Shown: piece after piece, positions 1,773 to 11,597 of the stretch
Layout of the letters: each line of letters begins with the position of its first letter
How positions within the stretch are numbered: the first letter of the stretch is position 1
From: Dunaliella salina
Taxonomy: Eukaryota > Chlorophyta > Chlorophyceae > Chlamydomonadales > Dunaliellaceae
NCBI GenBank assembly: GCA_002284615.2
Contig: MU070148.1
Coordinates: 17,858 to 29,454, forward strand
Length of the DNA: 11,597 nucleotides
Direction of reading: 5' to 3'
The notes under the pieces: generated by a model
Databases searched by the model: none
Seen by the model: only the letters and a program-made list of their open reading frames with translations
What the model was told of the DNA's origin: nothing
Made by a program: the position numbers and the translations under genes

Positions 1773-2109
1773 AAAGAAAAGGAAAAGGAAATTCTACGCA
1801 AGCCAGAGGCTGCGTGCATTAAGGGAGGGTCCACTAACTAACAAGCTAGCAAGCTAGCAAGGTAGCGGTAGCCTCGCCAGAAAGCCCTCAGAACCTACAC
1901 TAGACACAGCTAGCCTAGGAGAGAGCCACAGACAGATCTTGTGGAGGATCTGGAGGGTTGCTGCTCGCCATGCCTCTTGACGCCCGGGCTCTCCTCCTCC
2001 CGTTCTCCGCCGCCGCACGCCCAGCAAACTTTCTCCCAGAAGCCCCCTGGTTACAAAGGGTGTGTCTAGTGTTTTTGATAGTGGTAAATCCTTGGATGTC
2101 ATGGTCCCA
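1773..2109 (-). repeat. Family A SINE-like repeat, copy A1 (full length)
   Basis: This copy of about 337 bp is one of three long copies in the window (also A2 and A3). RNA sense is the minus strand, inferred from the pyrimidine 3' tail that it shares with the LINEs. In that sense it begins near GGGACCATGACATCCAAGG at about 2109, passes through a GC-rich middle with GCCCGGGCGTCAAGAGGCA, and contains CTCCTAGGCTAGCTGTG. It ends with CCCTTAATGCACGC, a hairpin (1796-1815) and a CCTTTTCCTTTTC tail. A short tandem run based on AAGCTAGC at about 1842-1860 is peculiar to this copy. I found no tRNA-type A or B box. An ORF of 82 codons on the minus strand (2102-1854) starts at the same ATG as a shorter ORF in A2. 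No target-site duplication is evident. LINE-1 coding sequence stops at its right edge and does not resume on the left. Confidence 0.75.
1796..1815 (-). other. 3' terminal hairpin of repeat A1
   Basis: In RNA sense the strand reads ACGC-AGCC-TCT-GGCT-T-GCGT. That is an outer 4-bp stem, an inner 4-bp stem, a 3-nt loop and a single T bulge on the 3' side. It lies between the CCCTTAAT box and the pyrimidine tail. Equivalent hairpins occur at 6325-6344 (A2), 7117-7136 (A3) and 5618-5637 (truncated A). The structure is inferred from base pairing only. Confidence 0.6.
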
Positions 2110-2686
2110 AAGCTCGGCTGCTAGTGATTTGGCTTTCTGTTTAGTCAGGCCCAGATTTATAAGGGGTGTGACTGTAAACTATTGTAAATGGTACCGGCCA
2201 CACCGATTAGGATGATGTGTTAAGTCACTTTGTTATTCCTGTCTGGATTTCTGGAGCTGCGGGTTTCAAGTCTGGTTATGGTGTGAGAATGTTGGGTCAC
2301 TGCACGTTCAAGAGTGATGAAGGGGGTTGTGTTTGGACAGAATGTTAGTTTAACAAGATGTATGTCCCTGTCTTGAGGAGGGATCTTGGAAGGATCAAGG
2401 TGAGTTTGTCTGGCTGGAAGAGGGCGCACAGAGATAGCATCAGGGCAGGTTTGGTGCCGGGCAGGGAAGCAATTACCATTAGGGAAATTCCAGTCTGGAA
2501 TAGCTCTTGATATGTTTTCAGGGACTTGTATGCCCTGATCCAAGAGTTTCTCGTTACTGCAGCCATCCATACCAATGAGGGATGAGCCATACCGGCCTTT
2601 TCTGAGGGCTTTCACACGAAGACTTAGGTCTGCATGGTGTCTGTTGGTGTGCATCCCGCTCATTGTTGAGTTTGTGCACCTGAGGA
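2110..2686 (-). pseudogene. LINE-1 C-terminal nuclease-like (PD-(D/E)xK type) domain, damaged
   Basis: The clean frame 2663-2220 encodes 147 codons, and LRCTNST precedes its first ATG in the same frame. It shows RHHADLSLRVKAL, then PDW.FP, then CPDAISVRP (Asp codon 2441-2439), then DRDIHLVKLTFCP (2363 onwards). By comparison with the other copies in the window, the second motif should read HLVE.K. Here Glu is replaced by Lys (2351-2349) and the second Lys by Thr (2345-2343), so both catalytic positions of an ExK motif are lost. After a TAA at 2217 the frame continues as HIILIGVAGTIYN. A further shift gives TPLINLGLTKQKAKSLAAEL, up to the edge of repeat A1. The position after RNase H and a zinc knuckle matches the restriction-like endonuclease of R2-type LINEs, which nicks target DNA. 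That homology is inference from motif and position. Confidence 0.7.
2677..2686 (+). repeat. Target-site duplication of insertion B1 (5' side)
   Basis: CACCTGAGGA, identical to 3216-3225. The flanking bases differ on both sides, so the duplication is exactly 10 bp. Confidence 0.9.
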
Positions 2687-3215
2687 CCTGAGGAGAGTCA
2701 GCTCCACCCAGATCAGCGACACATCCACCTTGTAGAAGTCAAAAACTGCGAAGACACACAGTCTTACAGCCAGCTTCAGGCCTCCAAGCAGCAGCACCGT
2801 GACCTTTGCCGTCATCTTTCTAGGGCTTCTGCTCAAGTCACCCTCCATACTATCCTGCTAGGTGTCGGAGGAGTCATCTACACCCCGCACACATTGGAGC
2901 CTCTTAAGGATCTTGGTCTTGACACTTTCAAGACCACCAAGCTTGTCCGGAAGCTTCATGCTCATTCTGTCCTGTATGCTTACAAACTTGCCAACACCAG
3001 ACGTGCTCTTGAGAAAACCTTTTTTCAGCTCTTAACAAGGTCAGGCACGGGATACTGCTAGTGACCCACCTGATCCCCACTGACTTCTTTCTTCTGCTTT
3101 CTCTTGGTGAAGAGGATACACGGTGCCTTGGCCCTGGGTATCCCCTTTTCCTTCATTGATGTGGGAGTGTTTTCACTGCCTGCGTAGTTTTTCTTTTTTT
3201 CCTTTCTTTTCTTTT
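2687..3215 (+). mobile_element. Insertion B1: 5'-truncated LINE copy with pyrimidine tail
   Basis: This 529-bp plus-strand insertion sits in LINE-1, bounded by perfect 10-bp TSDs. Its frame is open from 2684 to a TAG at 3059-3061 without any ATG, as expected of a 5'-truncated copy. It encodes the second half of the nuclease-like domain: HPDQRHIHLVEVKNCEDT (Glu 2735-2737, Lys 2741-2743, so E-x-K is intact), then QQHRDLCRHL, then TLHTILLGVGGVIYTPHTLEPL, then RKLHAHSVLYA. The frame is readable past the TAG as LIPTDFFLLLSLGEEDTRC. The 3' end has CCTTCATTGATG, a hairpin at 3161-3183, GCGTAG, and a tail of TTTTTC-like units ending at 3215. There is no poly(A). It is closely related to B2 at 8998-9618. 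The truncation, TSD and 3' tail are hallmarks of target-primed reverse transcription. Confidence 0.9.
3161..3183 (+). other. 3' terminal hairpin of insertion B1
   Basis: Sense strand GTGGG-AGTG-TTTT-CACT-G-CCTGC forms an outer stem with two wobble pairs, a perfect 4-bp inner stem, a TTTT loop and one bulged G on the 3' side. The LINE-2 counterpart at 5677-5698 has GAGA/TCTC as its inner stem, so pairing is kept while sequence differs. Confidence 0.6.
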
Positions 3216-3225
3216 CACCTGAGGA
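3216..3225 (+). repeat. Target-site duplication of insertion B1 (3' side)
   Basis: CACCTGAGGA, a perfect match to 2677-2686, directly after the pyrimidine tail of B1. Confidence 0.9.
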
Positions 3226-3719
3226 GTATTTCGTCAATTTGGTCCATACCATCACCTAGTGGGTATCTTCCATAACTTGAAAAGTTTATTTTAAAGGCAT
3301 GATTCTGATTGTACAGCATATCTGCACAATACTTCATTACATTTATGTGCTGTTTAAGGGTAATCCCTGGATTTTCCCAGAAGAAATTGCTAATCTCTTT
3401 GTTAGCAAGTTGAGAGGTTAGGTTGCAAGATTCAGTACTTGCAATGATGGTTGCTGGTATGGCATCAATAAGTTTCTGCCATTTCTAATAGTGGTAGCCA
3501 GAGGTGTCAGCAGAACCAAGCTTGTGCTTCTTGTGCATGTGTGCTTTACGTTTTCCGCTCAGGCTGGTGAAGTAGTGCATTGGGAAAGCGTGGGAGCGGT
3601 GTATGCCATCATGTGATGCATCATCATATGCAAAGTACGCATCATCATGCATCACATGAGAAAGACGTCTTCAATGAAAGCCAATAAAAATTGTGGAAAG
3701 GATCCCTGGCTTCTGGATA
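3226..3719 (-). pseudogene. LINE-1 linker and degenerate zinc knuckle
   Basis: Downstream of RNase H the minus strand reads RDPFHNFYWLSLK, then a low-complexity ATCATC segment with a frameshift (3610-3658). From MHYFTSLSGKRKAHMHKKH onwards it is one frame with a single TAG near 3487. It continues through QLANKEISNFFWENPG and the MLYNQNHAF stretch to YPLGDGMDQIDEILL at 3226. Across the B1 insertion the next residues are RCTNSTMSGM. LINEs of this type usually have a C-x2-C...H-x4-C knuckle here. In this copy the first two cysteines appear as Tyr and Gly, the His position as Glu, and only the last Cys (just across the insertion) is kept. Knuckle assignment is by position and spacing. Confidence 0.65.
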
Positions 3720-3871
3720 TGCAATGTCTATAGTGTCTGAGAGGGCTGCGGTGCGAGCGCAAGCATCAGCCCCCTCATTTCCTACAATGCCAGAGTGGGC
3801 TTTGACTTTGTAGAAATATAGGATAGGGTGAGGGGAGTGTTTTAACATGGATGACGTTGCATGACTGAGCC

Positions 3872-3881
3872 CTGCATGTAG
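3872..3881 (+). repeat. Target-site duplication of insertion C (left)
   Basis: CTGCATGTAG, identical to 4255-4264. On the minus strand it carries the LINE-1 codons for HLHA-type sequence within RNase H. Confidence 0.9.
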
Positions 3882-4254
3882 AAAGAAAAGAAAAGGAAAA
3901 AGAAAACCTACGTAGGTAGAGAAACCTCACTACATCAATTAAGGAAAAGGGGCCACATGGGTGTGCAGACCGGATGACCCCCCCCACCACAAAGTTCAGA
4001 CTGAGAGAAGCACGACAAGCAGAGAAAGAGGACAGGTTCAGCAACAGAGAGCAGGAAAGTATCTGAAAGACTGGAGTTCCAGACCTTCAACAACAAGCAG
4101 AGTCCACACTATCCAAAAGAGCCTTCCAAGCAAGGAAAGCCATGCCCAACAGTTGCGCATGGCAACTTCTGACTGCAAGGCTGGACTTCAGCCTGCACAT
4201 TTCATGCAGCTGATGACCACAAACAGAAGCCTATGGAACAGCCCTCAAAACCCT
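3882..4254 (-). mobile_element. Insertion C: 373-bp retro-insertion with B-type 3' tail
   Basis: The insertion lies inside the LINE-1 RNase H, in the same orientation as its host, between perfect 10-bp TSDs. In minus sense it ends with CCCCTTTTCCTTAATTGATG, a hairpin (3912-3933), CGTAGG and a TTTTC-type tail at 3882. That 3' end is clearly related to those of LINE-2, B1 and B2. The body, 4254 to about 3965, shows no similarity that I can see to the other copies. It has no open frame of LINE type and no tRNA-like A or B box. It could be a 5'-truncated LINE 3' UTR of another subfamily or a distinct SINE. A plus-strand frame (3961-4302) crosses it, but I regard that as fortuitous. Confidence 0.85.
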
Positions 4255-4264
4255 CTGCATGTAG
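4255..4264 (+). repeat. Target-site duplication of insertion C (right)
   Basis: CTGCATGTAG, a perfect match to 3872-3881. Confidence 0.9.
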
Positions 4265-4639
4265 GTGATATCTCATGCGCATCAGATTCAGGGTTTGTTT
4301 AGAAATCTGGGAGAGGCATGATGCACTATAAGTGGCAATTTGAGTTTGCTCGTTTTGGAGTGCCACGAGGATACCCACAAGTTCTGCTCTGGTGGTGGTG
4401 TTGGTGGGCCCATGGCCATTGGGTTTCATGTGCAGTTGCAGGTGTTGAGAGGGTGGAGCTGTATCCCTTCCCGGTTTGTAATCACCTGAGCCAGAAAGTG
4501 GGAGTCGTCATCTTTGTGTTTAATAACACTGCCATCAGTGTAGGTGCTTTCTCTCCAGTCCTTGATTTCAGGTGTAGACTTTTTTTGTAGTTGTTTGGGA
4601 TGAAGGCTGTCCTCGCCTGAGGGAACTTTTGTGAGCAGC

Positions 4640-5582
4640 TATGAATGTCAGGGAGAAGTGATTGAAATTTCTGTTGTCAAGTGTTTGATGTAAGGTGTTG
4701 GTGCCCGTGGGCACACAATGGCGTTAGGTTTGCAGGATCCAGGGGTAGCCAGTCAGCCGGAACATCTTTTTGGAGGAGTTCAAACCAATCTTTGTTAGCG
4801 GTATTTAGTGCTTCTCTGGCATTGGGATTCCAGACAACAATGAGTTGCATAGGATAGGAAGGTGGGGTGGAATTGGGTATGGCATCAAACGAGTGCTGTG
4901 GTGCCTGGAATTGGATGTTTCTGGCAGGGAATTTGGCAAGCACTTTTGCAAGGTGTGGGTATTGGGTAAGCCGTCTCATGTAAGCATTACAGCTGAAGCC
5001 TCTCCAGTGGGCAGGAGCATGAAGGTGGCAACTGGGTCTGTAGTTTGGAGGGAGGAGTGCACTGCGTGGCGCAGGAGTTGAAACGTTGTTTCATCATCAT
5101 GTGGGGGATGGCAGAAGGAGAAGCCAGTGTAGCGCACAGAGAGGGCGTCTGTGTGCGCTCCACAGACTTGGTCTCGGCTGTGTGCTGAAAATAAGTTTAG
5201 TAGGTCTCGCCAAATTCAAGGGGGGTGGAAAATCTTTCTGTTGAGACCATGCGCCATTTATGCAGGTCTAATTGGATGTGAGGAGGTGTGATAAGCGTGT
5301 TGGAAGTGTGAAGCTGTTTGCTCTTTGCTGAAAACTCTCTTTGTTGAACTTTTTGACGAGAGAGCAGTCCTTTAATTTCAGTTGCTGAATCCTGGGCAGG
5401 TGGTTGAATGGTGGCATGGATGCCTGCCCTTTTGGCTGCTTCATACTATCCTACTAGGCTAGTAGCCTAGGAGGCTTCGAGCTGGGTCACAAGCCTGTCT
5501 ACAGTGAGCATGCCAACGCACTTGCCATTGGCATTGTAAACACAGGTGCATTCAGTGGTGGTTACCTCCGACATTTGTGCTG
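4640..5582 (-). pseudogene. LINE-1 N-terminal region of unknown fold (possible relic methyltransferase-like domain)
   Basis: Reading starts plausibly at ATG 5574 (MSEVTTTECTCVYNANGKC), with a CTCVYNANGKCVGML cysteine segment. It is broken near 5464 by a palindromic CTAGGCT-AGT-AGCCTAG sequence. It then runs open for about 80 codons, shifts frame near 5205, continues as FSAHSRDQVCGAHTDALSV with CHPPHDDE at about 5092-5110, and shifts again near 4985. The last part, 4979-4677, is a clean 100-codon frame with MQLIVVWNPNAREALN. The order of an acidic/aromatic strand, a PP-containing loop, a helix and a hydrophobic strand ending in P is reminiscent of NPPY/NPPF-type N6-adenine methyltransferases. 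The key Asn would be replaced here (CHPPH), so I treat this only as a hypothesis. Function is not assigned. The sequence leads directly into the RNase H module. Confidence 0.5.
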
Positions 5583-5603
5583 GCATGGCAACCTCAAGAA
5601 AAG

Positions 5604-5658
5604 AAGAAGAAAAGTCTACGCAAGCCAGAGGCCGCATGCATTAAGGGAAGGTCCACTA
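5604..5658 (-). repeat. Truncated family A copy inside the LINE-2 tail
   Basis: These 55 bp match only the 3' end of family A: TAGTGGACCTTCCC, TTAATGCATG, a hairpin at 5618-5637, GCGTAG and a TTTTC tail. It is flanked by AAGAAAAG at 5596-5603 and 5659-5666. This fits insertion of a severely 5'-truncated A copy into the polypurine strand of the LINE-2 tail. Because the target is itself repetitive, the duplication is weak evidence taken alone. Confidence 0.65.
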
Positions 5659-5676
5659 AAGAAAAGAAAAAGCTAC

Positions 5677-5698
5677 GTAGGCAGAGAAATCTCCCTAC
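5677..5698 (-). other. 3' terminal hairpin of LINE-2
   Basis: RNA sense GTAGG-GAGA-TT-TCTC-TG-CCTAC: a 5-bp outer stem, a 4-bp inner stem, a 2-nt loop and a 2-nt bulge on the 3' side. It is preceded by CCTTAATTGAT and followed by GTAG and a TTTTTC tail. The architecture matches B1, B2 (9026-9049), C (3912-3933) and, with different sequence, family A. Confidence 0.65.
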
Positions 5699-6281
5699 AT
5701 CAATTAAGGAAAAGGAGACACGTTGGCTCAAAAAAGAGCCGTGAGCCCCCTTCAGCACAAGGTACTAAAAAAAGAAGTCTGGAGGGTTACTAGAAGCACT
5801 TGGCTCTAGAACCTGGCTGTGGGAAGTGTTCTTGTTTTCAATAGAGCGCGGCGTGTGGAGACTAGTTTGTGGGCATATTGAACAGAATGGGCATGAAGTT
5901 GTTGAGCAAGCTTCGTGGCAAGCTGGTGATCCAATCCTAACTGTTAAATTGCTTCAGGGTATGCTCAGCGTAAATAGTTCCACTTACACCCAGGAGAATA
6001 AGGTGAATTGTAACGGCTTTAGCATTTTTTAGTTTACAAAGTTCTGCATGCTGCTGTTTTGCCGCGTTAAACTTATGCTCTGGCCTTTTGTCTTTACAGA
6101 ACTTGATTTGTATTAGGTGCACCTGCACATGACGTTCATTTGCATCAAGTTCATGGGGTTGCCTCATGCGGATAGTTCTGGTGGTCCTCTTCGGGGAGCT
6201 GCGCAAAGCGTGATGGGAATAAGTAGGAGAAACACCGGTAGAAGTATGATTGGCATTGAAATTGGTGATCAAAACAGCATC

Positions 6282-6292
6282 TGGTCGAATGG
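6282..6292 (+). repeat. Target-site duplication of A2 (left)
   Basis: TGGTCGAATGG, matching TGGTCGACTGG at 6616-6626 with one mismatch. Confidence 0.85.
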
Positions 6293-6615
6293 AAAGAAAA
6301 GAAAAAGAAAAAAAAGAAGGGTCTACGGAAGCCAAAGGCCGCGTGCATTGAGGGAAGGCCCCCTAACAAAAGTCAGAGGCCTCACCAGGGGGCCCTCTAC
6401 CTAAACTAGACAAAACTAGCCTAGGAGAGGGCAAGAGACAAGACTAATGGGGATCTGGAGGATTGCTAGCCATGCCCCTGAGCGCTCGGATTCTCCTTCT
6501 TCCATCCTCAGCCGCCTCCGCGCGCCAAGCGAATCCCCTCCCAGATGCCCCCTGAAATCAAAGTGCATGTTTAGTGTTAATGATGGTGGATAATCTTTGG
6601 ATGGCATGGTCCCTA
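6293..6615 (-). repeat. Family A SINE-like repeat, copy A2 (full length, with TSD)
   Basis: This 323-bp copy is inserted into the LINE-2 nuclease-like domain between 11-bp TSDs with one mismatch, which defines both ends of the family. In minus sense it starts TAGGGACCATGCCATCC at 6615. It contains CTCCTAGGCTAGTTTTG and ends with CCCTCAATGCACGC, a hairpin at 6325-6344 (one stem mismatch) and a TTTTTCTTTTC tail. It is more diverged from A1 and A3 than they are from each other, so it looks older or from another subfamily. A frame of 63 codons (6607-6416) starts at the same ATG as the 82-codon ORF in A1. The two stay in phase for about 50 codons. Copy A3 lacks that ATG and has early stops. Confidence 0.85.
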
Positions 6616-6626
6616 TGGTCGACTGG
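6616..6626 (+). repeat. Target-site duplication of A2 (right)
   Basis: TGGTCGACTGG, the partner of 6282-6292. Removing A2 and one copy rejoins SSRP to DAVLI in frame on the minus strand. Confidence 0.85.
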
Positions 6627-6841
6627 AGTTGAGTCTTTTCCTCTCTGGAAGGTTACGAGGGAAAAAGTGAGCAGGTAAAGTTCTGTTTGAGGCATGTATA
6701 GGGAGTTGGAGGTTGTGTTGAGCAAGCTTTAAATCGCTTCCTATGTCTATATATACTAGGCCTGCCCCTACAAGGGATTTGCTGAGGGCTTTTGTAATCA
6801 TTCTGCCTGCAATGTTATTGCGTTCAGTTCTCACGTTGGAG

Positions 6842-7155
6842 TATCCAAAGATTAACCACTATCAAAAACACTAGACACGCTCTTTGCTCTCAGGGGGCTT
6901 ATGAGAGGGGGTTGCTGGGCGCACGGTGGCGGAGGATGGGAGAAGAAGAGTCCGGGCGTCAAGAGGCATGGCGAGCAGCGACCCTCCAGACCTCCATTAG
7001 ATCTGTTTCTGGTTCTCTGTTTTTGGCTCTCTCCTAGGCTAGCTGTGTTTAGTGCAGGTTCTGAGGGCCTTCTGGTGAGGCCTCTAGCTTCCAGATAGAG
7101 GACCTTCCCTTAATGCATGCGGCTTTTGGCTTGCGTAGGCTTTTCTTTTCTATTC
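6842..7155 (+). repeat. Family A SINE-like repeat, copy A3 (opposite orientation)
   Basis: RNA sense is the plus strand. From 6842 it reads TATCCAAAGATTAACCACTA, then the GC-rich middle with GTCCGGGCGTCAAGAGGCA, then CTCCTAGGCTAGCTGTG. It ends with CCCTTAATGCATGC, a hairpin at 7117-7136 and a TTTTCTTTTC tail. The first bases are shortened compared with A1 and A2. Imperfect flanking repeats GTTGGAG (6835-6841) and TTTGGAAG (7156-7163) may be the TSD. Without the insertion the LINE-2 protein joins GAYLP to NVRTERNN. With A2 it forms an inverted pair about 230 bp apart. Confidence 0.8.
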
Positions 7156-7163
7156 TTTGGAAG

Positions 7164-7955
7164 ATAAGCTCCAGTCTTAATGCTAGGGGCAGCCATGCTG
7201 TCAGTGTAGAAGTTTTCCGCAATACCGGCTAATTTGCTCAGAACCATCTCTAGTTTGCCTGTGTTGGGGTCTGTAAGTACTTGGGCTTGAGAAGGAGCAT
7301 TGCTTTTGCCATGAAAATTTCCTTTTTGGCAAGAGCAACGTCTTTTGCAATTTTCTTCTGTTGGCGTGTTCGTGCTCTGGCACTGTGCGCTGTTCTTTTC
7401 TGTTTCTTTTCTTTTCTTGTCTTTTCTTTTCTTTGCTCCTTCAGATTCTTATCTTGGTCTTGGAGGACAGTCCCCAATGGTGGCAGAGGGGGTGAATCGC
7501 TGTTTGAGTTAGGGGCAGAGGATGTTATATCTGGGTGAGAGAAGCTTCGGACAAAGAGCATGGCCCTATGAAGATTGGGGTCATGACTGTTAATGGCTGG
7601 GACTTCATAAGAGAGGCTCAGGGTGGCCTGGGGTAAGTTGTATTGCATGTGGCAAACAGATTTGAGTTTGTTACAGAGTGGTTTGCGATGTTGCTGATCC
7701 TCCTGGTTCTGAAGTGTTTGGATATTGTGAGCTTACTTTTGGTGTAGCACACTTGCAGAGCCACCTCGTGGCACTCTTTGATAAGATTAAGAACAATGTT
7801 GTCGGCAATGTTCTCAACAACATTTTCCTTTGGTGTCATAATTACATGCAGCTTGAGTGGTTATTGGCAGAGGAGTTTTTGGTTGTTTGTCAATAGCTTT
7901 GCAGGTGGTAGCTTCGTCGGTAAGTGTGGTTCGGTCTGATGTAGGCCCAATTCAG
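7164..7955 (-). pseudogene. LINE-2 N-terminal coding remnant
   Basis: The minus strand reads TLTDEATTCKAIDKQPKTPL (about 7925-7865), then after a one-base shift LKLHVIMTPKENVVENIADN (7854 onwards) in the frame 7839-7618. A shift near 7630 leads into the frame 7648-7250, which contains NLHRAMLFVRSFSHPD and a very basic segment rich in Lys, Arg and Gln (KEKTRKEKKQKR, then ARARTRQQKK). That segment is probably nucleic-acid binding or nuclear-targeting, by composition only. A shift near 7285 leads to QAQVLTDPNTGKLEMVLSKL and then GAYLP, directly before the A3 insertion. I do not recognise a catalytic domain. Repeated one-base frame changes show that it is dead. Confidence 0.6.
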
Positions 7956-8420
7956 GACAGTCAGTTCTGATTTGAATCTGAATCAGGAGGTACGTCTGAT
8001 CTGGGCCTGATCCACCCCTGATTCAGGATGGGAAACACCTGATTTAGAACTGCCTTACGGTAATCTTGTTGGCTTACTTGAGGCAGGTCTGAATCAGTTC
8101 TGATGTACACCTGAGTCAGGATGAACAACGCCTGATTCAGAACTGCCTTTTTTAAATTTATTTTGCGTGCTCGGAGCAGGTCTGAATCAGTTTTGATATA
8201 CACCTGATTCAGGATGGACAACCCCTGATTCAGGACTGCCTTTTTTATAATCTAGTCGGCTTACTGATCTGGACCTGATCCAGGTCTGATTCAATCAGGA
8301 CCTTGCCTGTATAAGGTTTGCTTGGTTCAACCCAGTCCTACCAACTCCCTAGAGGTCTGAGTCAGTTCTGAAGTGCACCTGATTCATGGGTGTTTGCACC
8401 TGAATCAGGAAACCTCTACT
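7956..8420. repeat. 93-bp tandem repeat with palindromic TGAWTCA motifs
   Basis: Three adjacent units start at 8021, 8114 and 8207, a period of exactly 93 bp, with degenerate partial units on both sides. Each unit carries several copies of the near-palindrome CTGATTCAGG or CTGAATCAG. Examples start at 8019, 8089, 8132, 8182, 8204, 8225 and 8400, and CTGAGTCAG variants are at 8111 and 8357. Shared blocks are GAACTGCCTT and GCAGGTCTGAATCAGTT. Because 93 is divisible by three, a minus-strand frame stays open through the array (8221-7961) with a 31-residue repeat carrying a YI.TDSDL-like motif. I think this is a by-product of the period. Function is unknown. Confidence 0.85.
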
Positions 8421-8468
8421 AATAAAATGTCTTAGCACCATGTATGGCCCCCTAAAGGCCACTTGTCC

Positions 8469-8493
8469 ACACACACACACACACACACACACA
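8469..8493. repeat. (AC)n microsatellite, first tract
   Basis: An uninterrupted AC dinucleotide run of 25 bases. It translates into meaningless Cys/Val or His/Thr strings in several frames. Confidence 0.97.
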
Positions 8494-8521
8494 AGACACG
8501 AATTTCTTTTGGAAGTGTAAA

Positions 8522-8528
<7 letters not shown>

Positions 8529-8554
<26 letters not shown>

Positions 8555-8555
8555 N

Positions 8556-8595
<40 letters not shown>
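8529..8595. repeat. (AC)n microsatellite, second tract with an ambiguous base
   Basis: A CA dinucleotide run with an N at 8555, preceded by CGCGCG. The N marks an assembly join or an unresolved length, so the true tract length is unknown. Confidence 0.97.
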
Positions 8596-8599
<4 letters not shown>

Positions 8600-8810
8600 T
8601 TTATGTATACCATATATGTTGCGCATATGGACACGTATTTTTTAGCACATATATATGTGCATAGAAACAATTACATGTACATATATGATTGCCAAAGGGA
8701 GCCACACACTGCAGTCATCACGCTGCCCCTGAGCCCATGATACCCTATTCCAGAGCATCTGTGGAGCCGCATGCTTCTGCAAGGCTTTGTCAGAAAGTTC
8801 TCATTTGGAC
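8596..8810. other. AT-rich spacer without a gene
   Basis: No coding remnant was seen. It contains the perfect 16-bp palindrome GCACATATATATGTGC at 8645-8660 and several TGTATAC/CATATATG-like words next to the microsatellite, a common property of alternating purine-pyrimidine DNA. Confidence 0.5.
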
Positions 8811-8932
8811 GTGATTCAGGCAAAAGCCGTTCTGAATTTCAAGCTGGATCAATTCAGCCTAAAGAGCCGAATCAGGTTGCTTCCCTCTTGGATCAGATAA
8901 GGTTAGACCTGAATCAGGTTCAGATCAGAAGA
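8811..8932. repeat. Second block of GATTCAGG/CCTGAATCAGG motifs
   Basis: The same word family as in 7956-8420, for example TGATTCAGG at 8812, GAATCAGG near 8870 and CCTGAATCAGG near 8909, without a clear 93-bp period. This suggests that the microsatellite region was inserted into, or expanded within, a once longer array. Confidence 0.6.
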
Positions 8933-8997
8933 ACCACACTTTCCGACGTTTGTTGGATCCCAGAACCATGGGATCCACATTTCGTAGCGAAATTTCA

Positions 8998-9618
8998 GAA
9001 AAGAAAGAAAGAGAAGAAAAACTACGCAGGCAGTGAAAACACACCCCACATCAATTAAGGAAAAAGGGATACCTAGGGCCAAGGCACCGTGTATCCTCTT
9101 CACCGAGAGAAAACAGAAGAAAGAAGTCAGTGGGGGTCAGGAGGGTTACTAGCATTATCCCGACCTTGTTGAGAGTTGAAGAAAGCTTTCTCAAAAGTGC
9201 GTCTGGTGCTGGCAGTTTCTGGGCATATAGGACAGAATGAGCATGAAGCTTCCGAGCAAGCTTGGTGTCTTTGAAAATGTCAAGTTCAAGCTCCTTAAGA
9301 GGCTCCAAAGTATGTGGGGTATAGATGACTCCTCCCACACCTAAAAGGATAGTATGGAGGGTGACTTGAGCTGAGGCCCCTGAAAGATGACGACAAAGAT
9401 CGCGGTGCTGCAGCTTGGAGGCCCGAAGTTGGCTGTTGAGCCAGGTGTCCTCACAGTATTTGACTTCAACAAGGTGGATGTGCCTCTGATCTGGGTGGAG
9501 CTGACTGGGGTCACGAGCCTTGAGTGTTGGTGGAGTGGCTGTGGCTGGCGCTGAGTCCTATTTGTTTCCCCCGCGCCCCCCTGCACTTCTCAATTCATAA
9601 TGAGGATTCGACCTAGAC
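8998..9618 (-). mobile_element. Insertion B2: 5'-truncated LINE copy related to B1
   Basis: Minus-strand coding from about 9580 includes DPSQLHPDQRHIHLVEVKYC (E-x-K intact, Glu codon 9467-9465), CEDTWLNSQLRA, and after a disturbed stretch GGVIYTPHTLEPLKELELD, KLARKLHAHSVLYA and TPTDFFLLFSLGEEDTRC, ending near 9056. The 3' end has CCTTAATTGATG, a hairpin at 9026-9049, GCGTAG and a TTTTTCTTC-type pyrimidine tail down to 8998. A possible 8-bp duplication AAATTTCA flanks it (8990-8997 and 9619-9626). It is closely similar to B1 over its shared length but about 90 bp longer at the 5' end. A TAG near 9583 and the frame disturbance near 9380 mark it as dead. Confidence 0.8.
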
Positions 9619-9715
9619 AAATTTCACACCTGTTTGTTGGTATGATGTCTGTCTGGGGCTTAGTAGCTTTGAAGCTACCTCAAGGTCAAAGATGCCTTCA
9701 AGGCATACAGCAAGT

Positions 9716-10077: not shown

Positions 10078-11476
10078 ATGTTTCATTATGTGAAGGCCCT
10101 GACTGCATGCCCTCCTCACCGTCCATGGACAGAAGTGCTCCTTGCTAGTTGGTCTGCGTTAGCAGACAGTGTTACTGACATTGATGTTGGTGTTGCTACT
10201 ACTAAAGTTGAAACTCTGTTCCCTCTTTTTGGAGTTAAGCAAGGCTGCCCGCTTTTCCCCCTGCTGTTTTCCCTGTACATCAATGATGTGGATTGCGTGG
10301 CAGAAAATGTGCAAGGGGTAGTTACCGGTGCAAGCAATCTCCATGTTACGCATATGCTGTGTGCAGATGATCCGTGCCTTACCAGTAACCAGCCTGGTCA
10401 GCTCCAGTTGATGTTGGATAGGTTGCACGCTTATGCTCNGCGGAAAGGATTGGTGACAAATGCTGCCAAGTCTGAGATTGTGCATTTTAATTCTAAGGGC
10501 AATAATGTGCCAGTCTTTACTTTCGGTGGAGTGCGCTTGGCTTGTGCAAAGTCTTTCAAATATTTGGGCATGCTGTTCACAAAGCAGCGCAACCCTCAGG
10601 CCACTGCCGAACACATGTGCGCTCCTTTCCTGGCTGGATGTAGACGGATCAGGCAGTTTGCGTCAGAGTACCACTTGACTGACAGGCCGCATACCATGCT
10701 CTGGCTGGCTAAAGCATATGCTCTCCCTGCTAGCATGTATGCTTGTCAAATCTGGGGCACTAGATATATGAAAGAAGGTGCTGAATGGACTGCCCTTTAC
10801 AAACTGTGCACCTGTGCTTACTGAAGCGTTTCCTGGGGGTGAAGCGTACCGCCCCTAACTGGTCCGTTCTTCGGGAATGTGGTCATGAGCCTTTGCAGTT
10901 TTATTGGTTCCGTGCAGAAGTCAGATTTTACAATGCTTTGCTGCGCAGCAACAGTACTACACTACGCAAGGTGCTGCAAGCAGATGTTGACATGAGCTGC
11001 ATATCTCGTAAATGTTGGACCTCAGTGTTTTTGGCAGCATGTAATGGCTTGGACAGGTGCAATATGTTTATCCAATGTGTGCGTTCAGGGCAGCTGGTAG
11101 CACTGAAGGAGTTCGTTGTTGATTTGAGAAAAAGGCTACGAGGCGTTTGGAATGCGGCTGCCTTGGCAGAGCACAATGACGTGTGAACAAATTAGCCAAG
11201 TATCATCACTGGGTGGCTCTCCCTTTGAAGCCTTTGGCTACTTATGGAGCGCCCTTTTCTGTCCCTAGGTATTTGCGTCTTGATTTAGGCAAGCACATGC
11301 TGAGAAACATCGCACGCTTTTGATTGCATGCACACACCCTAAGAGTTGAGACGTCACTTTGGCAGGAGCACACTTCAGTTTGTGATAAATGTGACCTAGG
11401 AGGACTTCAAGATGAAAAACATGTTGTGTCCCTTTGTTCCTGCCTGTGTGTTCTCTTACGTCAGAAATATCTGGCC
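10078..11476 (+). pseudogene. LINE-3: 5'-truncated reverse transcriptase with C-terminal zinc knuckle
   Basis: The enzyme would copy LINE RNA into DNA at the nicked target. The open frame 10078-10824 contains RT motif B as GVKQGCPLFPLL (residues 52-63; the usual Ser is Phe) and motif C as HMLCADDPCL (residues 92-101; YADD has become CADD). Motif D is NAAKSEIVHF and motif E is KYLGML, followed by thumb-like sequence. Fingers and motif A are absent, so the copy is 5'-truncated near 10078. A one-base loss in an A run near 10782 shifts the frame to 10785-11186 (HLCLLKRFLGVKRTAPNWSV). A second shift near 11184 leads to NKLAKYHHWVALPLKPL. There is a TGA at 11321-11323, probably from CGA. The knuckle is CDKC...KHVVSLC (C-x2-C-x9-H-x4-C). 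The base at 10439 is N. The sequence stops abruptly at the foldback repeat. Confidence 0.9.
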
Positions 11477-11597
11477 TGCGGCTGAACACGGCTGATGCGG
11501 CTGTAGCGCGGCTGAAAATTTTTCAGCCGTGTTCAGCCGCTAGCGGCTGTCAGCAGCCGCACGGCTGATTTCAGCCGCTTCAGCCGCGTTCAGCCGT
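11477..11597. repeat. Foldback repeat of CGGCTGAA / TTCAGCCG, runs off the window
   Basis: Dense alternation of CGGCTG and CAGCCG words. A perfect 16-bp inverted repeat pairs CGGCTGAACACGGCTG (11479-11494) with its complement at 11524-11539. A nested 10-bp palindrome CGGCTGAAAA/TTTTCAGCCG occupies 11509-11529 and would compete with it. Further copies follow to the window end. It interrupts the LINE-3 reading frame just after YLACG. It could be a foldback (MITE-like) transposon end or a satellite; the right boundary is not visible. Confidence 0.75.

Follow-up and report, generated by a model that had tools for sequence, protein, structure and literature searches.

Retroposon 3' tails of one hairpin plan and differing stem letters in the genome of Dunaliella salina

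The stretch of Dunaliella salina contig MU070148.1 analysed here, an 11,597-nt segment that we refer to as the window, carries eight small RNA hairpins at the ends of retroposons. We consider it highly probable that each of them marks the 3' tail of a long interspersed nuclear element (LINE) cut short at its 5' end, that these LINEs are of three types, L, B and A, which form a single clade with a restriction-like endonuclease (RLE), that the hairpin and the TTTTC repeats behind it act as a template tag, and that two non-autonomous families, E and Ap, are copied in trans. Computed evidence for this reading comprises the tail family itself, pairing kept through two-sided changes, varied 5' truncation, flank duplications, the shared 5' ends of E and Ap, and a predicted RLE fold for the open reading frame (ORF) of L. 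The first-pass annotation, in which L, B and A appear as LINE-2, B1 and A1, had placed hairpins at eight positions, and at all eight we found one at a retroposon 3' end; the hairpins are real and the overall observation is confirmed. Further tail types, Ap, C and E, occur in the genome.

Using the strict pattern CCTTAAT-N14..44-CGTAG-N0..4-TTTTC, we searched the whole 285-Mb assembly (1403 contigs) and obtained 3585 matches (1725 + 1860) versus 1 (0 + 1) for the reversed pattern used as a control. The first 100 listed matches were mainly of the L, B, A and Ap types. The hairpin stands between CCTTAAT on its 5' side and AG plus (TTTTC)n on its 3' side, the GT of GTAG being part of the outer stem, and its overall plan is an outer stem of 5-7 bp, a mismatch or bulge in most families, an inner stem of 3-4 bp and a small loop. 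The consensus is ATGTAGG-G-AGAG-TTT-CTCT-G-CCTACGT for L, ATGTGGG-G-AGTG-TTTT-CACT-G-CCTGCGT for B, ACGCGGCC-TTT-GGC-T-TGCGT for A, ACGCGG-CCA-GACT-TGG-A-CTGCGT for Ap, ATGCTAT-C-GGAC-GAT-GTCT-A-ATAGCGT for E, which has the same 7-1-4-3-4-1-7 plan as L, and ACGCTGG-TAAGTG-CCAGCGT for C. Among the first 100 listed matches, the 52 long-type cores had all seven outer pairs in 43 cases and six in 9, while the 48 short-type cores had all five in 39, four in 6, three in 2 and two in 1. Folding energies gave z scores of -5.0 for L and -4.1 for B; a single A-type hairpin is unexceptional in this respect (z about -1 to -2). The architecture that the first-pass annotation held to be common, namely box, hairpin, GTAG and TTTTC, was recovered, with the exception of its universal 1-2 nt 3' bulge: in A and Ap a single nucleotide is bulged on the 3' side, L and B have a symmetric 1x1 G.G mismatch, and C has no defect.

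The proposal that pairing is retained across families while the stem letters change was borne out by arm swapping, by covariation in an L/B/E alignment and by RNAalifold. Tails were also collected by pairing-free patterns, in which the boxes were fixed and the common stem letters excluded, with controls counted alongside. A non-C base before GTAG gave 533 matches (control, 7), and a purine at position 14 with no G at position 15 gave 163 (control, 5), a set that by eye consists almost entirely of decayed copies of L, B, A and Ap. With a pyrimidine at position 14 there were 144 matches (control, 3), among them the new types E and C plus single others. E and C, found in this manner without any use of pairing, do pair, and their stem letters differ from those of the other types. 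We also picked 17 tails of C-like or odd form from the non-C and pyrimidine sets; read in the register of seven outer pairs, they had 7/7 in 9 cases, six in 6, five in 1 and three in 1.

The covariation alignment comprised 29 L, B and E variants picked by hand from about 300 listed rows (about 4000 matches in all); it contains no A, Ap or C tails and no rows with indels. In three of its rows the pyrimidine tail, which lies outside the pairs, was lengthened or shortened by 1 base, and one of the added bases is not confirmed. In this alignment 93.7% of cells pair, versus 75.2% when shuffled (0/500 as high) and 29-50% when slid. Cells with two-sided changes number 64, versus 25.4 in shuffled alignments (0/500 reach 64), and the covariation score is 0.565 versus 0.251 (0/500 as high). 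RNAalifold recovered 10 of the 11 pairs unprompted. When arms were exchanged between six families picked by hand, one of which has 6/7 of its own pairs, the upper outer stem formed 2.83 of 3 pairs with its own arms and 1.27 with exchanged ones; 4 of the 720 permutations did as well, since the arms of L and B can replace each other. The inner stem formed 4 pairs with its own arms and 2.4 with exchanged ones, the own arrangement being the best of 24. Compensated stems are also present in the E relatives L119 and L123.

The LINEs behind these tails had been described as unrelated, a description that their proteins contradict. In longer copies of L, B and A (L039, L040 and L041, respectively) an ORF ends less than 100 bases from the tail, and the C-terminal ORFs are homologous: B matches L at 50% over 246 aa (E = 6e-72), A matches L at 32% over 144 aa (E = 2e-17) and A matches B at 34% (E = 8e-14). 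The ORF of a C copy is A-like (43% over 128 aa, E = 8e-24). The first-pass annotation had also taken A1 for a family resembling short interspersed nuclear elements (SINEs), an assignment that we rejected, since an RLE-type ORF homologous to those of L and B precedes the A tail in longer copies, both in L041 and at window positions 2220-2738; A1 is a LINE because its longer copies carry this homologous C-terminal ORF. In L041, 5018 of the 7051 bases are N, and the A copy was read from its 3' part.

A model of the C-terminal part of the L ORF, made from an alignment with 36 relatives, scored pLDDT 79.8 and pTM 0.77. When its C-terminal 322 aa were submitted to Foldseek, R2 retrotransposon proteins occupied PDB ranks 1-7 (best E = 1.5e-5; three of the seven below 0.001), with 9nl3, 9dou and 9nl2 at E = 1.5e-5 to 5e-5 and probability 1.00. 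The L ORF C-terminus is therefore predicted to resemble the linker and RLE of R2. An RPD...EIK motif was read in the RLE-type sequence, and RNase H precedes the RLE in a B copy (E = 2e-12) and also in the ORF of L117. One L copy (C718) has an open frame of 1606 aa followed by an L tail (L118). Among the best 120 of 187 matches, the closest named relative of the L ORF is P0196 of D. salina, which matches 32% of the query length at 74%. In the upstream 933 aa of the L-type ORF of C718 (L117:3-2801, minus strand), ahead of RNase H and RLE, there is a PCIF1_WW-like domain (E = 3.8e-9) and, by eye, a Cys/His-rich stretch of PHD- or RING-like appearance, an unusual domain set. A protein from a bacterial metagenome-assembled genome (P0162) and many EukProt 'Pelagomonas' transcript-derived proteins also match these retroelements, probably through contamination.

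The 5' cut points of copies, Ap included, are many and varied, and so are the insertion sites. Flanks were scored for 80 of 92 tails, with all families represented, and matches of at least 8 nt were found in 24 of the 80 copies versus 2.9% of shuffled pairs. At one locus (L074 / L091, C22) an Ap element lies within an A-type RLE ORF, and the tblastn match is split around it.

Use of LINE-type tails by SINEs, as the first-pass annotation had envisaged, is documented by E and Ap, although no SINE of either kind was recognised in the window; E, Ap and the chimeric copy L108 all lie outside it. For E, at least 42 matches were listed from 408 candidates (40 scored), with 40 at 92-100% identity. The element measures 189 nt from a common 5' end, and 9 of the 14 scored copies are full-length; scoring covered 14 of 15 copies, L105 having been left out as it lacks a recognisable head, and L122 was not entered. 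Flank matches of at least 7 nt were found in 11 of the 14 versus 6.2% of shuffled pairs. At +50 and +93, a tRNA-like spacing, E carries TAGCCTAACGGG and GGTTCGACCC, which we take to fit the A and B box consensus except at the last B-box base. Its short fixed body, A and B boxes and target-site duplications are the features of a tRNA-type SINE. ARAGORN and Rfam found no tRNA in L103-L105, E loci of which two lack or cut the head, and the single Rfam match near E was under the gathering score. The E tail has its plan in common with the LINE tails and stem letters of its own, and L122 joins another short body to an E-like tail. In L113, an E copy is inserted within a B-type tail hairpin, with a flank match of 12 nt.

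Ap is about 631 nt long (C72 copy, to the first TTTT), and no ORF was recognised in it. We compared 10 of the 40 listed loci plus 2 further copies, and 8 of these 12 long copies begin at a common 5' end, on which ground we rejected the view of Ap as a mere truncated LINE. The C72 copy contains a B-box-like GGTTCGATCCC and no clear A box, and neither ARAGORN nor Rfam gave a match in Ap. That the Ap and E bodies contain no TTTT was considered as a sign of polymerase III and rejected as not significant, given that TTTT is likewise missing from 0.28 and 0.44 of simulated sequences. In L108, seen in one copy, the body is Ap-like (79% over 286 bp) and the tail C-like (86% over 69 bp), a chimera that is expected if SINE bodies can exchange tails.

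Within the window, the RNA sense of the hairpins is plus at 3161 and 7117 and minus at the remaining six sites, and the covariance model R1 recovered seven of the eight tails (E = 8e-10 to 0.012), missing that at 6325. A-type tails lie at 1788-1824 (hairpin 1796-1815, minus strand; R1 E = 0.012, and folding), 5609-5646 (hairpin 5618-5637, minus; E = 0.007) and 7108-7145 (hairpin 7117-7136, plus; E = 0.01), and a decayed A-type hairpin with a CCTCAAT box and CCGTAG is identified by folding at 6325-6344 (minus; no R1 match). L-type tails occupy 3902-3944 (hairpin 3912-3933, minus; E = 1e-7) and 5667-5709 (hairpin 5677-5698, minus; E = 7e-9), and B-type tails 3150-3193 (hairpin 3161-3183, plus; E = 5e-8) and 9016-9060 (hairpin 9026-9049, minus; E = 8e-10). 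As isolated cores all eight fold into a hairpin, 3912-3933 as cut taking another register and 6325-6344 a weaker one. In minimum free energy structures with 20-30 flanking bases the hairpin is retained at six sites (1796, 3161, 3912, 5677, 6325 and 9026), 7117 retains the outer stem alone, and 5618 adopts a different fold.

The A-type ORF fragment upstream of the first A tail (2220-2738, minus), homologous to the C-terminal RLE ORF, matches the A ORF of L041 at 70% and L at 28%. RLE ORF fragments belong to a B-type copy at 2684-3061 (plus; 80% to the B ORF of L040), an L-type copy at 5937-6362 (minus; 78% to the L ORF of L039) and a second B-type copy at 9051-9557 (minus; 84% to the B ORF of L040). 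The first B copy is bounded by a 10-nt target-site duplication, CACCTGAGGA, with the 5' flank copy at 2677-2686 (plus) and the second at 3216-3225; the second B copy has an 8-nt flank match, TGAAATTT, with the 5' flank copy at 9619-9626 (minus) and the second at 8990-8997. Elsewhere in the window we noted a reverse transcriptase (RT) ORF at 10078-11440 (plus; RVT_1 E = 6e-11) with frame-shifted ORFs downstream and 112 relatives; tandem-like CTGATTCAGG-type units spaced by about 93 bases at 7980-8420; a long (CA)n microsatellite with one N inside at 8467-8597; and, at the right-hand margin (11470-11597), densely packed CAGCCG / CGGCTGA repeats. ARAGORN found no tRNA and Rfam no match in the window.

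Tails of a similar kind have been described in other organisms. A bulged 3' hairpin is given as characteristic of stringent LINEs (PMC5135761), and the L2-clade elements UnaL2/UnaSINE1 of eel and ZfL2-1 and ZfL2-2 of zebrafish need their 3' hairpin for retrotransposition (PMC4176376, PMC5135761). The likeness lies in an internally bulged or looped 3' hairpin followed by a short repeat, (TGTAA)n in that case, and common to LINE and SINE. The Dunaliella elements belong to a different LINE group, with an ORF that ends in a predicted RLE preceded by RNase H and with TTTTC as the repeat; they also show several stem-letter types within one genome, and are known from sequence alone. Chlamydomonas SINEs share RandI/Dualen tails, and SINEX-2 ends in (CTTT)n (PMC3747384); Dualen/RandI has RLE and RNase H (PMC4640811), and Dualen has APE and RT too. 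Here again there are algal SINEs with LINE-derived tails, and of the Dualen features a C-terminal RLE (as a predicted fold) and RNase H are present in the Dunaliella elements. Monocot LINE1-1_ZM and ZmSINE2/3 are similar in having a conserved 3' hairpin with compensatory changes and a conserved CGAG 3' of the stem (PMC3747384); these are of the L1 clade with a conserved UCU loop, whereas the loop letters differ between the Dunaliella families. The R2 proteins (9nl3, 9dou, 9nl2) resemble the L ORF in the predicted fold of its C-terminal 322 aa, but identity is about 12%, and the Dunaliella elements have RNase H and varied insertion sites. As in stringent LINEs, we found a conserved 3' hairpin on several LINE families and a tail of the same kind on SINEs (E and Ap). 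Bulged 3' hairpins, LINE/SINE tail sharing and compensatory changes in such tails are thus already described; what sets the present case apart is how widely stem and loop letters vary within one clade, together with a SINE that has the common plan but its own letters. A literature search, of partial coverage and not including Repbase, found no paper on these families.

By analogy with UnaL2/UnaSINE1 and ZfL2 (PMC4176376, PMC5135761), we propose that binding of the hairpin by the LINE protein would single out LINE and SINE RNA as templates of target-primed reverse transcription, which would start in the TTTTC repeats, at a nick. The non-autonomous E and Ap, whose tails follow this plan, would be copied in trans, moved by these LINEs with an RT that the LINEs presumably encode. 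Tail geometry, flank duplications, 5' truncation and sharing with SINEs fit this mechanism.

Several findings weigh against it. The bulge is not universal among the tail families. Of the flank matches, 2 of the 24 of at least 8 nt, and 1 of the 11 in E, are pyrimidine runs. No Pfam RT was found in the 933-aa upstream part of the 1606-aa L frame (L117) nor in the further-upstream pieces L104 and L096; such pieces of other copies look like the end of an RT, without a Pfam match. No E-tailed LINE has been identified so far in a search that was not exhaustive. Two-sided changes affect 7 of the 11 pairs, a count equalled in 161 of 500 shuffles and therefore uninformative by itself, and since stem changes are common to members within families, the independent compensatory events are few. 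Finally, the sequence of the tail boxes is itself conserved: nearly all tail types have CCTTAAT, the basal A-Y-G-Y / R-C-G-T pairs, AG and TTTTC, so that common descent accounts for much of the sharing. The idea that structure rather than sequence is shared holds in part, pairing being kept with differing stem letters while the boxes and basal pairs are shared as sequence.

How widely a tail is recognised is a further matter. It is possible, though we hold it doubtful, that one RLE-LINE machinery reads mainly the hairpin shape between two fixed boxes, so that it serves many LINE and SINE families whose stems and loops differ, and tails can pass from one SINE body to another. We lean instead towards one-to-one LINE/SINE pairs with matching tail sequence, the common plan reflecting LINE ancestry and not a single shared reader. 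The Ap tail is similar to the A tail, L108 has a C-like tail on its Ap-like body, and ZfL2-1 and ZfL2-2 reject each other's stem-loop (PMC4176376), all of which favour such pairs; the lack so far of an E-tailed LINE, in that same non-exhaustive search, speaks against them. One-to-one pairing is compatible with the hairpin and TTTTC repeats as template tag and competes solely with shape-reading by one machinery.

We judge it unlikely that the tails are alike through descent or sequence borrowing only, with a protein that reads the letters of CCTTAAT, CGTAG and TTTTC and a hairpin that is incidental. Near-invariance of the boxes and four basal pairs and the weak energy of A-type hairpins agree with this, but in the upper and inner stem both arms differ in their letters across L, B, E and C without loss of pairing, and the E subfamilies L119 and L123 are compensated. 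A role of the hairpin in host-type RNA processing, export or 3' end formation, and not in template choice, is very improbable: its place at the RNA 3' end ahead of a pyrimidine run, which in E and Ap might double as a polymerase III stop, would suit such a role, but the tail is carried both by long ORF-bearing LINEs and by a short SINE with A and B boxes, whose transcripts are probably of different origin, and it is not significant that the bodies of E and Ap lack TTTT. Chance inverted repeats within a pyrimidine-rich repeat end, with which the low z scores of single A-type cores would agree, have next to no probability and are rejected by the 3585-versus-1 pattern count and the L/B/E covariation.

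How LINEs discriminate their own and SINE RNA from other RNA has been worked out in few elements. Tails of this sort are known in other organisms, and the natural series is unusually clear in D. salina, where one genome holds thousands of tails in several families, of one geometry and differing letters, plus a homogeneous 189-nt SINE. The part played by shape and by sequence in template choice is therefore directly testable here, for a LINE with a predicted R2-like C-terminal endonuclease, and if shape-reading proved true, this genome would provide a ready-made set of natural mutants with which to study template choice by structure.

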